From the NCBI GenBank assembly GCA_028820935.1, contig JAPPHZ010000018.1, positions 1 to 64,000 on the forward strand: DNA of 64,000 nucleotides. The letters are read 5' to 3'. Shown one piece after another: positions 50,342 to 57,757 of this stretch. The translations under genes were made by a program, and so were the position numbers. Every line of letters begins with the position of its first letter. The stretch's first letter is position 1. This stretch comes from a bacterium (GTDB taxonomy: Bacteria > Actinomycetota > Acidimicrobiia > Spongiisociales > Spongiisociaceae). The notes below the pieces were generated by a model. It was not told the DNA's origin and did no database searches. It was given only the letters and a program-made list of their open reading frames with translations.

Positions 50342-51391
50342 ATGTCAACCCGGCGTAGGGTGGTGCTCGAGAATACGCCGCTGCCGTCTCCGTTTCCCGA
50401 GGGTTGGTACTTCGTCACGAGCCGTGAGGCACTGCTGGAAGCCGGGCTGATCGAAAAGAAGTGGATGGGGGAGAACATCGTCGCCTGGAGCGACGAGAAC
50501 GGGGAGGTGTGCGTCGCCGGCGCCTATTGCCCGCATCTGGGCGCCGATCTGGGACCGACCGCAGGAGGACGCATCTGTGAAGGGCGGCTGGTCTGCCCGT
50601 TCCATGGGTACGAGTTCGACGCGACCGGCCAGTGCGTGGCCACCCCCTATTCCCCGCCGCCGACGACCGCGAGGTTGCGCGTCTTCGAGACGCATGAAAT
50701 CGCCGGGCTGATCTTCGCCTGGTGGGGGGCCGGGGGACGGGCGCCGCAGTGGAGCCTGCCCGACGATGTACTGGATCAGGCCGGATGGACCGGTCTCAAG
50801 ATCAGGACCCTCCGGTTTCCCGGCCATCCGCAGGAGACGACGGAGAATTCGGTCGACGTAGGCCACCTGCGCTACGTCCACGGCTACGACAGCGTGGACC
50901 GGGTGGGGAAGGTGTCGGTGGACGGGGCGCGTCTGGAGAGCGACTTCGACTTCAGGCGTACCCGGACGACTGCGGGGATTGTGACCCTCACCTTCGACGT
51001 GGCCGCCCGCACCCGAATCTTCGGGTTGGGTTACTCGTTCGTGCAGATCCGCGAGCGCTCGATCGGGATGGATCTGCGGCTGTGGGTGCTGGCGACGCCC
51101 GTCGACGGTTCGCTCATCGACCTGTCGCTGGTTTCGCAGGTGCGGGAGATACGAAATCCGGGCCGGTGGATAGCAGGCCTGGGGTTCCTACCGGTGAAGT
51201 GGCGAGCGCCCATCATGAACCGGTTCATCTCGTCCCAGCAATACCGGGACGTCCAGCAGGATGAGATCATCTGGAGCCGCAAGCAGTACCGGTCCCGCCC
51301 GCGCCTCTGTCGCTCCGACGGCGAGATCATGCCGTTCCGGCGCTATTGTGCCCAGTTCTATCCCGATCCTGCCGATCTGGAGACTCCCTAG
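50342..51391 (+). CDS. Rieske non-heme iron oxygenase
   Basis: The 349-residue product has an N-terminal Rieske 2Fe-2S site CPHLGADLG...CPFHGYEF (about 63-91). The C-terminal catalytic domain has a mononuclear iron site in ENSVDVGHLRYVHG. The overall plan resembles steroid-type oxygenases such as KshA and 7-desaturases. No reductase or ferredoxin partner is adjacent. The ATG at 50342 has AAGGG about 9 nt upstream. Its stop TAG (51389-51391) is part of the CTAG edge of MITE copy D; a P450 gene converges from the other side. Confidence 0.9.
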   Translation: MSTRRRVVLENTPLPSPFPEGWYFVTSREALLEAGLIEKKWMGENIVAWSDENGEVCVAGAYCPHLGADLGPTAGGRICEGRLVCPFHGYEFDATGQCVATPYSPPPTTARLRVFETHEIAGLIFAWWGAGGRAPQWSLPDDVLDQAGWTGLKIRTLRFPGHPQETTENSVDVGHLRYVHGYDSVDRVGKVSVDGARLESDFDFRRTRTTAGIVTLTFDVAARTRIFGLGYSFVQIRERSIGMDLRLWVLATPVDGSLIDLSLVSQVREIRNPGRWIAGLGFLPVKWRAPIMNRFISSQQYRDVQQDEIIWSRKQYRSRPRLCRSDGEIMPFRRYCAQFYPDPADLETP

Positions 51392-51579: not shown

Positions 51580-53607
51580 TTACACCGGCAGTTCGTGCCT
51601 TTGCTCGGCGACGACGAACTGCAGCTTGTTGTTCACCGACGACGACGGGAAGGAGCTGATCTTCAGCTTGTAGTTGGCGGGAGAGATCTCGAGCCTGAAA
51701 TGGTGAACGAGCAGCAGCAGATGGATCGCCAGATGCAGGGATGTCCACCGGGACCCCAAACACGTATGGGTACCTAGGCCGTACGGCGCGTATGACGACC
51801 CGAGGTGCTCCTTGCGCGGAGGCAGGTAGCGGTCGATGTCGAACGAGAAGGGATCGGGGAAGACGTCCTCCATGTAGTGCGTGGCCGTCTGGGCAATCAG
51901 AACCCGCGCCCCCTGCGGCAACTCGTATCCCTCGACCGCGCAGGTGTTCATCACATTTCGATACGATGCTGGCACGATCGGGTAGAGACGCAGGCACTCC
52001 ATGATGAACCGGCGTGTGATGTCGATCGCCGGCCCGGTGAGTTCGTCACGATCCGGCGTCCCCTTGGCGAACAGGGCGTCTGCCTCATTGCTAATACTCT
52101 CGTGGAACTCGGGCTGCGACAGCATCGCGTAGATGATTAGGCCGAGTTGATCACCGACATACATGCTTGCGATCAGCGCCGCCGAGAGCACGAAGGGCAG
52201 GTTCGACTCCGGGAGGAACTGCCGATCGCTCGCGTGCATGCTCAGCAGGTCATCGGCGAGGTCGCGAGGACACCCAGCCCGCTGGGCGGGTGTGTGGCTA
52301 CTCAGGACTCGTTCCATGACCTCTCCGACCAGCTTCGCCCGGCGCTTCATAGCGGGCGTACGCAGCATCACCTTGGGCAGGTTCCCGATGACATGGGTCT
52401 GCAGGGCTCTTTCCTTGAATTTGTGCAGGTCCGCGACGACATCCTGAGTATCGATGCTGACCATGGCCGGCGACAACGTTGAATTGACCAACTGCCTGCA
52501 CATCGTCTTTGCGGGGAGCTTGTCACCGACAGACCAAGCCGCCATGTAGGCCCGGGCGGTGGAGTAGCACTCATCCAGCCGAGCCTCCAACCTGGTGCGG
52601 GAATAGGCCGGCTGCATGGACTTGCGGTACCGGAAATGATCGGCACCGTCCAGCGTGGGCAGGATTCCTGATCCTCCGTATACCTTTTCGAAATCCTCCA
52701 GATAATCCCTGGATCTCAGGTACATGCGCCCATGCCGATGTGCCCAGTGATTCATCTCGGGGCCGGCAAGCAAAATCATCGGGCCGGTCAAGGGCGGGCG
52801 GAGCTCGAACACCGGTCCATATTCTTCGGCAAGCTCTGCAAAGAAAGCAGGTAAATTGCCTTGGCGAGCGGGCCGGCTGCGCAGCAACCTACGAAGTGGG
52901 ACAACCGGAATCGGCTTGGCGAAAGCGGAAGGCCTGAACAATGAACGAGAGAGGTTGTGGCTAACTGCTGCGGCGATGGACCTGCCGATCAAGTCCATGT
53001 TGCTGATGAACTCAACTCGCTTCTCCGATGCTTCGTCGAGTTCGAATATGAAACGCAAGACGTCGCATGTATTGATGAGACAGATGATGATGATATCTCT
53101 TGGATCCGGAATCTCGTTGGCGAAGATGGCTCTACTAAGGCGGATCTTGACGAAGTCAACAGCGGTACCTTCTCCAGCCGTGGCGTACGAATCCTGTTGC
53201 CATGCGCCCCGCGCCAGCGACCAGAAGTCACCGTCGTGGTGCCGGAGAATCTTCAGATCGACCAGCCGCTCAAGGGTCAAGTCGATAATTGAGTCCGCGC
53301 GCGGGGCCAGTCGCTCGATCCAGTACTGGGCGTCTCGTTGGACCGGCTCGGAGGCGATTTTCTCAAGGACAGGATCCAGGGCAGGATCGCCCGTTTCTGT
53401 CCGATCCAGAAGTATCAGCGAATCCATATCCGTGTCTATACGCGTTAGGAGAGACAGCTGTCCCAGCACCCCTCCGATAACGGCACAGTTCAAATCCCAC
53501 CCGGGAACCTGCCGGAAGTAGCCACTCTCCTCGTTGAGGAGTGTGAGGACGAGTTCGTCGAGCAGGCTGAGCTTCTGAGTGACCGCACTGTCGGCGGTTA
53601 GAGTCAT
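51580..53607 (-). CDS. GPP34 (GOLPH3-like) domain fused to cytochrome P450
   Basis: The 675-residue product joins two domains. Residues about 13-220 match the GPP34/GOLPH3-like fold (LSLLDELVLTLLN, GGVLGQLSLLTRI, TETGDPALDPVLEKI, LTLERLVDLKIL, RLSRAIF). Residues about 240-660 are a P450, with ECLR (ExxR, 537-540), FPDPFSFDIDRYLPP and the heme ligand Cys616 in PYGLGTHTCLG. The helix-I region (about 478-489, ASMYVGDQLG) lacks the usual acid-Thr pair. ATG 53607 has GGAGGGA upstream; a frame to 53691 runs into the regulatory repeats. Base composition drops to about 38% G+C in parts of the GPP34 region, suggesting transfer. A bacterial GPP34 domain may target membranes; the substrate is unknown. 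Confidence 0.85.
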   Translation of the reverse strand: MTLTADSAVTQKLSLLDELVLTLLNEESGYFRQVPGWDLNCAVIGGVLGQLSLLTRIDTDMDSLILLDRTETGDPALDPVLEKIASEPVQRDAQYWIERLAPRADSIIDLTLERLVDLKILRHHDGDFWSLARGAWQQDSYATAGEGTAVDFVKIRLSRAIFANEIPDPRDIIIICLINTCDVLRFIFELDEASEKRVEFISNMDLIGRSIAAAVSHNLSRSLFRPSAFAKPIPVVPLRRLLRSRPARQGNLPAFFAELAEEYGPVFELRPPLTGPMILLAGPEMNHWAHRHGRMYLRSRDYLEDFEKVYGGSGILPTLDGADHFRYRKSMQPAYSRTRLEARLDECYSTARAYMAAWSVGDKLPAKTMCRQLVNSTLSPAMVSIDTQDVVADLHKFKERALQTHVIGNLPKVMLRTPAMKRRAKLVGEVMERVLSSHTPAQRAGCPRDLADDLLSMHASDRQFLPESNLPFVLSAALIASMYVGDQLGLIIYAMLSQPEFHESISNEADALFAKGTPDRDELTGPAIDITRRFIMECLRLYPIVPASYRNVMNTCAVEGYELPQGARVLIAQTATHYMEDVFPDPFSFDIDRYLPPRKEHLGSSYAPYGLGTHTCLGSRWTSLHLAIHLLLLVHHFRLEISPANYKLKISSFPSSSVNNKLQFVVAEQRHELPV

Positions 53608-53638: not shown

Positions 53639-53695
53639 ACCTTAGCATGAAGTACGTATGAAGAAAGTATGAAGAGGCTGTTCGGGAGCATGAAG
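53639..53695 (-). promoter_or_regulatory. PhoB-like 11-bp direct repeats and -10 box
   Basis: On the minus strand CTTCAT occurs at 53690-53695, 53669-53674, 53658-53663 and 53647-53652. The last three are spaced exactly 11 bp and the first 21 bp away. TAAGGT (53639-53644) follows as a -10 box. Tandem 11-bp direct repeats in the -35 region are the layout bound by OmpR/PhoB-family regulators. They lie 40-90 bp upstream of the GPP34-P450 start. Confidence 0.55.
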
Positions 53696-55418: not shown

Positions 55419-57212
55419 TCAGAGGGGCAGCCATTTGACCGCCATCAGCCATACGTAGATTCCGATGACGGCGAACCCGATACCGACCGTGGTGGTTTGT
55501 TCCACCCTGGGGTTGTGCTTCGCGTCTGTCTTGACGGTTCGGAACATGACCTTCCCGGCGCCTGTGATGAGGGGAAGGTCACGTTCGGAGCGTCGGTCGA
55601 ACAGGTGAACGGTCATGAACGTGACAGCCGACGCCAAGAGCATCGACAGCACATCGTTCACCAGCGCGGGCCACGCCTGCGTTTCGGTGCGGGCGAACAC
55701 GGCCATACCCGCCACCAGGAACGCCAGCATGACCAGCACGATCAGCTCGGCCAGGTTCCGGCCCTTCTGTTTGCTGTTCACCAGCGTGTCCAGGTTCCCT
55801 TGCATCTCCGCCGCCTCGGAACGGTCCAACCCGGCTTGTTCGATCTGGTCGGTCACATAGTGGTAAGCGTGTTCGAGTTCGCCGATGTTCCTGGTCGTGT
55901 CAATGGTCTGAACATGGTTCAGCAGGACGCGGCGGGTCTGTTTGTCGGCGGATAGCGCGTCGAGCCGCCGCCACAGCATGTAGGTTTGCTGTTCCTCGCT
56001 GGCGGTGCGGGCGGTCAGACGCGAAGTGCGGAACGACAGGATCAGAACGAACACCGTCGCGCCCGCGCCCAGCACGCCGTAATAGTCGCCGAATCCCGGG
56101 AACCATCCGTATCCGGGAATGTGGGTGAACCATTCGTCGCGCATATAAATGACGAACCCGAACCCCAACAGACTCAGCACAAGCCACTTGAACCCGGCCC
56201 GGTCCTCGGACCGGAAGTTGATCAGCGCACTTACCGCTATCACCGCCGCGGCGCCGACCCAGAGAAAGTCGGTACGGTACACCGTGATCGTAGCGAAGGC
56301 CGCCAACCAGACCAGCGACAGGACCGGCCGCAGGTACTGCATGGCGTTCACACCCAGATTCGTCGCTTCCAGGTTTGCGTAACGGAAAGCGATGTTTCCC
56401 AACGCACTTACTATCCCGATAGCGATCAACCAGACGACCGGGGTTGACACGAAACCGCCCAGATGTGTGCCAGGTCCTGTATCGCCTGGGAAGACGGTCA
56501 GACCGATTAGAAGGCCGCTTAGTATGCTGGCCACACTTGTTACTATCGAAACAGCTAGTACACAGGCTAATTCATCCCTCTGAGTATCAGATATATCTGA
56601 CATGCTCTTGCATCTATCATGATACAGTTCTATCCCTAACCTAAACCTAAAAGATATCCAGGAGCCACAGACCGCGCTCGCCGCGGCTAGCAGCACACCC
56701 CACAGGAGACGCCAACCTCCCTCGGTTGTGATACCACCGGCCTGCGAAAACGTAACGAGCGCAACCCCGGCCATAGCAATACTGAGTAGCAGCCAATGCT
56801 GCCCAGTCATCCGCTGGTACCGGGGGTCGTGTTGCTTCCGATAAGCGACGAAGAGAATAAGCCAGCCACCCGTAATGACCGTCACTAATGCGGTGTCCAG
56901 GAACAGAGTGGCACCCACGAAGGCTGCCAAATTGAAGCCGTTGAGCATTGCCAGTACACCGTCACGTGTAGGAAGTCGGCGAAGAATCCAGGCCCAAAAG
57001 TCGCTTCGTATGACGAGCCCGGGATGAGTCCAGATCAGATAGACGAGCCAAACCAGAGACACTGTGGAGTAAACCCAGAATTGGAACACGAAAGGCCCGA
57101 CCGTGCCGCCTACAAGGGCCACTGCGAGCGGAGTCCACGAGTTCAAGAACACCGAAACGCCCATCCACGACGCCGCCCTCGTGTCCGGTTTCAGCCGCGC
57201 AGTGTCGGTCAT
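55419..57212 (-). CDS. Large DMT/EamA-like membrane protein with extra C-terminal module
   Basis: The 597-residue product starts at ATG 57212 with GGAGAGG upstream. About ten membrane helices (residues about 15-360) have the repeated layout of drug/metabolite transporters, including LNGFNLAAFVGATLFLDTALVTVITGGW and ALGNIAFRYANLEATNLGVN. A further helix pair, a charged helical cytoplasmic segment (about 405-490) with HVQTIDTTRNIGELEHAYHY, and two more C-terminal helices follow. No substrate can be named. The N-terminal half is lower in G+C than its surroundings, suggesting acquisition. Confidence 0.7.
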   Translation of the reverse strand: MTDTARLKPDTRAASWMGVSVFLNSWTPLAVALVGGTVGPFVFQFWVYSTVSLVWLVYLIWTHPGLVIRSDFWAWILRRLPTRDGVLAMLNGFNLAAFVGATLFLDTALVTVITGGWLILFVAYRKQHDPRYQRMTGQHWLLLSIAMAGVALVTFSQAGGITTEGGWRLLWGVLLAAASAVCGSWISFRFRLGIELYHDRCKSMSDISDTQRDELACVLAVSIVTSVASILSGLLIGLTVFPGDTGPGTHLGGFVSTPVVWLIAIGIVSALGNIAFRYANLEATNLGVNAMQYLRPVLSLVWLAAFATITVYRTDFLWVGAAAVIAVSALINFRSEDRAGFKWLVLSLLGFGFVIYMRDEWFTHIPGYGWFPGFGDYYGVLGAGATVFVLILSFRTSRLTARTASEEQQTYMLWRRLDALSADKQTRRVLLNHVQTIDTTRNIGELEHAYHYVTDQIEQAGLDRSEAAEMQGNLDTLVNSKQKGRNLAELIVLVMLAFLVAGMAVFARTETQAWPALVNDVLSMLLASAVTFMTVHLFDRRSERDLPLITGAGKVMFRTVKTDAKHNPRVEQTTTVGIGFAVIGIYVWLMAVKWLPL

Positions 57213-57757
57213 GCAACGCCTCTCCGGGTACGACCGTCGGCACCGTGTACCAACATGGCGAGGATAGAACACGATACCGGGACCGGCCGGCGCTTGGCCC
57301 GGCGGGGCTTGCGGCGCGCCACCATCGGCCGGCGGCGAACGGCTCAGCCTCGATCACATCGAGGGCGACCGGGCCGGGTTCACCGCCTCCGGCTTAGCAT
57401 CCGTAGCGGGTGCGGGGGGCTGTGCCCTGGCCAGCGGGGTCAGAGACGGGCGGGGTCGGGATGGACGTTCACGGACCAGGCCGCGGAACGGCGGCCGTGG
57501 CTGCGGGTGGATGGCGCGGGCATGTGCGGGAATGTGGAAGTCCCCCCCCACTGATAATGTGGAAGTCCCCGTCGGAATGGTCCTATCACCGCAGGTCAGG
57601 GATGGTGGGGAACATGCCACTACATCTCTTCGGGGGCCGCGGAGTTTCGTCCGGCACGGCGGTGGAGCGGAGCGCCGTTGCCGGAGCTATGGACGCCCCC
57701 ACAGATTGTGCTGCTACCGTCTCCTCCGCCCCACCCGGCCCTTTTCCTGAGGTGTAG
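57213..57757. other. Gap with possible insertion-sequence remnant
   Basis: AATGTGGAAGTCCCC occurs twice, at 57531-57545 and 57556-57570 (25-bp period), with ACTGAT between. Such tandem terminal sites resemble the ends of IS21-type elements, but no istA/istB gene remains. Reading frames on either strand are Pro/Arg/Gly-rich and unsupported. The last 50 bases carry the ribosome-binding site (GAGGT) of the next gene. Confidence 0.4.

Follow-up and report, generated by a model that had tools for sequence, protein, structure and literature searches.

The Fusion Gene and Its Two Domains

What does a bacterium do with a protein in which a GPP34 (GOLPH3-like) domain runs on into a cytochrome P450? 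Such a protein is encoded in the window, by which we mean the whole 64,000-nucleotide stretch of DNA analyzed here; the genome (3.3 Mb, 97% complete) has metagenome-assembled genomes of Acidimicrobiia as its nearest named relatives. The gene is a single uninterrupted open reading frame (ORF) starting with the ATG at 53607, and a Pfam search recovered both halves claimed by an earlier note on this DNA far above the cut-offs (Table 1): 88.7 bits against 29.1 for GPP34, over profile positions 1–199 of 201, and 124.1 bits against 22.8 for the P450. Another in-frame ATG upstream at 53691 is not shared with close relatives, and at loci L033–L037 a stop codon closes the frame 6–12 codons above the equivalent of the 53607 start. 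The structure prediction that the earlier note had proposed yielded a good whole-protein model (mean pLDDT 84) from a 78-row alignment, which was used instead of an alignment of 16 close homologues that gave a pLDDT of 49. Invariant columns amount to 60 of 204 in the GPP34 part, 85 of 412 in the P450 part and 3 of 32 in the linker. The GPP34 domain is hence conserved at least as much as the P450 and the linker much less, which argues for a working GPP34 domain.

In line with the earlier note, which knew of no characterized bacterial protein of this kind, no description of a GPP34-P450 fusion was found in the part of the literature searched. A search combining GPP34 and P450 returned insect transcriptome papers only, and the use of a GPP34 domain as part of an enzyme is a role for which the searched literature gave no report. 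SCO4440 of Streptomyces coelicolor, studied in the formation of wall-deficient cells, is also a bacterial GPP34 protein, but a single-domain one (PMC12402492).

Table 1. Positions in the window of the fusion gene, its domains and motifs, and the adjoining conserved gene.
Feature	Position	Strand	Evidence
GPP34-P450 fusion gene, 675 aa	51580..53607	-	Single ORF; both Pfam domains; full length kept in many genomes
GPP34 (GOLPH3-like) domain, residues 15-216	52960..53565	-	PF05719, E = 7e-25
Predicted beta hairpin, residues 121-131, candidate membrane/oligomer contact	53215..53247	-	Secondary structure of the model; conservation in 30 homologues
Interdomain linker, residues 217-248, least conserved part	52864..52959	-	3/32 columns invariant
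Cytochrome P450 domain, residues 249-658	51634..52863	-	PF00067, E = 8.5e-36; fold nearest M. capsulatus CYP51
Degenerate I-helix motif A-S-M-Y-V-G-D, residues 480-486, replacing (A/G)GxDT	52150..52170	-	S481, Y483, G485 invariant 30/30
ExxR motif, residues 537-540 (E537, R540)	51988..51999	-	Invariant 30/30
Haem-Cys loop YAPYGLGTHTCLG, residues 606-618, Cys616	51754..51792	-	Cys invariant 30/30
KshA-type Rieske oxygenase, convergent neighbor, conserved partner	50342..51391	+	Rieske and KshA_C domains; nearest solved structure KshA

The P450 Domain and Its I Helix

The solved P450s nearest by sequence profile are CYP120 and CYP51 and, lower down, CYP46A1, and the nearest fold is that of Methylococcus capsulatus CYP51 (TM-score 0.81 by target length). 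CYP51-type enzymes carry a conserved His-Thr pair in the I helix. Because this signature is absent, the P450 half is not a CYP51; moreover, CYP51 acts downstream of an oxidosqualene cyclase, and no cyclase was found in the genome or the genus. The M. capsulatus protein (PDB 6mcw, 7snm) is likewise a bacterial sterol P450 with an extra domain fused to it, but it is a ferredoxin-fused sterol 14alpha-demethylase, whereas the present protein has an N-terminal GPP34 domain, no acid-Thr pair and about 20% identity to it.

As claimed previously, ExxR and the haem Cys are retained, E537, R540 and Cys616 being invariant in all 30 homologues. The earlier note overlooked the I helix, in which the canonical monooxygenase signature (A/G)Gx(D/E)T is missing. 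In all 30 block-type P450s, that is, those of the gene block described below, the acid-Thr pair has given way to A-S-x-Y-[VLM]-G-[DQ] with one residue deleted; 29 of them read A-S-x-Y-x-G-D and the one at locus L044 reads N-S-x-Y-x-G-Q. Most P450-only relatives outside the block (25–34% identity) retain AGxDT or close variants. Two of these relatives, L135 (SNSLLYGAP) and L137 (SNAMLYGGP), are also without AGxDT, apparently through a separate loss. With its proton-delivery pair replaced by the conserved S-x-Y-x-G-D, the P450 probably works without the standard O2-activation relay and, having lost the catalytic pair, is perhaps no ordinary oxygenase. The I-helix Thr is also lost in P450s such as allene oxide synthase and prostacyclin synthase; our search for papers on the loss of this Thr found nothing. 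This P450 subfamily is of interest in itself, as one that dropped the I-helix catalytic pair yet kept the haem site.

It is nevertheless quite possible that this P450 serves in a sterol locus as an ordinary hydroxylase or desaturase, receiving protons via a substrate hydroxyl, a water molecule, Tyr483 or Asp486. The overall fold is retained together with ExxR and the haem Cys, and some P450s without the I-helix Thr, such as P450eryF, still hydroxylate; what speaks against an ordinary hydroxylase is that every member has lost the pair and one residue with it, a change not shared by most outside relatives, which keep the pair. We regard it as unlikely that the P450 half has no catalytic activity left and acts as a sterol-binding or scaffolding subunit, as might be proposed from the lost I-helix motif and from the P450-derived glycosyltransferase activators, which show that a helper role is possible. 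The match to the model of these activators (TIGR04515) is very weak, 19.7 bits against a cut-off of 343, and the haem Cys that, like ExxR, is invariant here is missing from the helper P450s known so far.

The GPP34 Domain

When bacterial GPP34 domains were combined into a profile, it matched GOLPH3 (3kn1) at 1e-20, a significant match indicating that the fusion shares this domain with the eukaryotic family members GOLPH3 and Vps74, which have no P450. The PI4P pocket of GOLPH3 involves W81, R90, R171 and R174 (PMC4414131), and by sequence mapping these correspond to V34, I44, D105 and I108 of the fusion. As none of the four residues is conserved, the phosphoinositide-based membrane recruitment that the earlier note had envisaged is unsupported, and the membrane role of the GPP34 domain rests on analogy. 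A generic association with membranes is possible, for example through the conserved hydrophobic stretch F128-W129-x-L131 of the predicted hairpin, in which L121, H124, G126, F128, W129 and L131 are invariant in 30 homologues. A loop with invariant F31, V34 and W37 is a second candidate for a membrane or oligomer contact. The domain would most likely hold the P450 at the membrane near its substrate, taking the role that the N-terminal helix plays in eukaryotic CYP51.

Genes Near the Fusion

The ORFs lying within 6 kb of the fusion were compared over 26 divergent loci. A Rieske/KshA_C oxygenase and an FAD amine-oxidase-like protein each recur at 22 of them, an MMPL/RND protein with sterol-sensing and Patched matches at 21, and a sterol methyltransferase at 18. 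Seven Chloroflexota loci (L099, L100, L102–L106) have an ERG4/ERG24 sterol-reductase pair (PF01222, 8.5e-41) in tandem close by, although L106 shows one copy only within the fetched stretch. Four sterol-family components, namely the methyltransferase, ERG4/ERG24, the Rieske oxygenase and the sterol-sensing RND protein, are thus co-located in related loci. For the FAD enzyme, the closest sequences are those of the amine oxidase LkcE and of 2b9w, a fatty-acid double-bond isomerase; for the MMPL protein, they are those of Patched, HpnN and NPC1-type proteins. Hopanoids and other lipids are likewise transported by MMPL/RND proteins, and matches to the sterol-sensing domain occurred in 5 of 14 control genomes of ordinary bacteria and archaea. 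BstA of the Bst sterol transport system is also an RND-type bacterial sterol transporter (PMC10942540), but the MMPL neighbor resembles it only weakly, scoring 31 bits where the cut-off is 1400.

In the window, only the Rieske gene adjoins the fusion, the other surrounding genes being housekeeping or unrelated, and this is the one partner that remains adjacent in the genus. The genome nonetheless holds the whole set, dispersed over five contigs: the FAD enzyme and the MMPL protein lie side by side on contig C36 (85% and 80% identical to those of locus L039), C11 carries the block-type methyltransferase (56–67% identity to the copies in the block), C51 a further methyltransferase and C38 an ERG4/ERG24 gene. 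Of the "lipid or polyketide-like substrates" suggested earlier, the lipid part is supported by the recurrent sterol-type neighbors, and there is no sign of polyketides, no polyketide gene being present among the neighbors scanned; the earlier interpretation as a whole is partly supported. Three further observations concern neighboring or related genes. A 617-aa protein without a Pfam match is encoded at 55419-57272 of the window (with a low third-position G+C of 0.715), and it is present at the same place in some close relatives and was not found in others. Another P450 lies beside an FAD amine-oxidase-like gene on a small contig of the same genome (L059:1437-4280). The ERG4/ERG24 genes L185 and L186 of genomes G521 and G494 score 421–434 bits, compared with at most 244 bits in other carriers, and in G494 some 200 bases separate this gene from a match to a sterol methyltransferase.

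The block-type methyltransferase accompanies the fusion also at the genome level. Among 60 genomes of the order it was found in all 9 with the fusion and in 0 of the 51 others, its type having been judged from the domain match profile, not a full comparison, in G001, G004, G006, G007 and G008. G005 has the C51-type methyltransferase only and no fusion, and G009 and G013 have neither. In Chloroflexota, where methyltransferases were typed by score, 20 of 22 carriers and 0 of 279 others have it; 18 of these 20 genes adjoin the fusion, and in G494 and G670 the gene is on a different contig. Two carriers of the fusion block, G521 and G561, have no sterol methyltransferase at all, and G462 and G545 have a methyltransferase of another type without the fusion. 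The Fisher values for co-occurrence are tiny, uncorrected for shared ancestry and physical linkage.

A Putative Role in Sterol Modification

These observations make it fairly probable that the fusion is an enzyme of a sterol-modification locus common to bacteria of several phyla that apparently live with sponges and corals. No squalene/oxidosqualene cyclase was found in the genome of the window or in any searched member of its genus, and no triterpene cyclase in the carriers G521, G601, G561, G494, G485, G448 and G449; such carriers could use sterols only from outside. Because the fusion usually stands beside sterol-handling genes in genomes mostly unable to make sterols, it probably helps these bacteria to remodel sterols acquired elsewhere. 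In a pathway of this kind, the RND/MMPL sterol-sensing protein would move the sterol, the methyltransferase would alkylate its side chain, the Rieske oxygenase, the FAD enzyme and the P450 would oxidize or rearrange it, and the ERG4/ERG24-type reductases would saturate the products. "Candidatus Aldehydirespirator" has an oxidosqualene-cyclase-like gene (fitting the oxidosqualene model far better, at 705 versus 258 bits, although 705 is below that model's cut-off of 851), so this carrier may make sterols itself; the gene was located at L066:1486-3480.

The locus might instead serve a different isoprenoid lipid, hopanoids or carotenoids for example, with the sterol-type neighbors acting on those. 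Among the Chloroflexota, most carriers possess a triterpene cyclase, and 4 of the 5 cyclases classified from carriers are hopene cyclases; the MMPL protein matches HpnN models as well, and HpnE and carotenoid enzymes are among the FAD amine-oxidase-like enzymes. We consider this reading improbable in view of the carriers that have no cyclase and of Sterol_MT_C and ERG4/ERG24, which are sterol families by name and matched none of the 14 control genomes in either case.

A sterol-modification locus in symbionts has published counterparts. Sterol methyltransferases of symbionts (PMC10070321), sterol clusters of Ircinia symbionts (PMC9531527) and the msb cluster in Melophlus (PMC7074536) have been described, and these sponge-symbiont clusters also have methyltransferases and ERG24, with a Rieske oxygenase in Melophlus. 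Unlike the present locus, they are built around de novo synthesis by an oxidosqualene cyclase and CYP51, and GPP34, Rieske and MMPL proteins are not mentioned in the main texts of PMC10070321 and PMC9531527. The locus bears on the question of which organisms produce the sponge sterols with alkylated side chains that serve as the oldest chemical traces of animals; bacterial methyltransferases that can form the 24-isopropyl side chain have been described (PMC10070321). To these it adds a defined group of six or seven co-conserved genes, found in bacteria mostly without a sterol-making cyclase. As a speculation, the P450, anchored by GPP34 and no longer a monooxygenase, might rearrange, dehydrate or ring-close the side chain or nucleus of host-derived sterols in symbionts, thereby helping to make unusual sterols credited to sponges.

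Distribution and Relatives of the Fusion

Within the genus, 8 of the 10 genomes (that of the window included) have the fusion, and so does G010, from a sister genus of the same family. In addition, 22 of 301 sampled Chloroflexota genomes carry it at 58–65% identity, two of them as contig-end fragments, and one scan of the whole collection gave 13 fusion loci in Acidimicrobiia, Chloroflexota and one Rhodospirillales bin. Identity across carriers ranges from 51 to 96%. The fusion is hence real and conserved across unrelated bacteria of several phyla: although all named carriers are metagenome-assembled genomes, the frameshift or assembly error joining two genes that the earlier note had considered is practically out of the question, because stop-free, full-length homologues with the same domain order recur in many independent genomes. 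The block regions of L042 and L043 are 100% identical at the protein level despite belonging to bins labeled Rhodospirillales and Chloroflexota, so one of these bins probably contains a foreign contig. The sponge or coral habitat of the carriers is read from isolate names; a search for papers on some of these names found nothing. The fusion did not turn up in other sampled Actinomycetota, where the 12 regions with long GPP34 frames that were inspected have no P450; no place in plasmid records covered 80% of the fusion, and Foldseek against viral models gave essentially P450 matches only. Many carriers have a stand-alone GPP34 paralogue elsewhere (36–44% identity), and the genome of the window has one on another contig.

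In the tree, the clade of the window groups with other Acidimicrobiia (L038, L044), several forks being unresolved. The version shared by G010 and L039 falls outside this group, though G010 belongs to the family of the window. The fusion gene has a G+C content of 59%, compared with roughly 64–68% for its surroundings, and a third-position G+C of 74%, compared with 82–88% in all but one of the neighbors measured. Since the fusion is G+C-poor relative to its own locus in 33 of 36 cases, covering nearly every lineage, base composition is weak evidence for horizontal transfer into the genus.

A second, diverged GPP34-P450 fusion (32–33% identity) occurs in G521, G657 and G697, the last with one stop codon. 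The copy at L118 matches Pfam GPP34 at 5e-36 and P450 at 2e-65, and both diverged fusions examined have a canonical I helix, indicating that the architecture predates the I-helix change or that the fusion arose twice. The diverged fusions at L118:1272-4509 and L119:5984-9186 are followed by an acyltransferase-3 (MdoC-like) gene.
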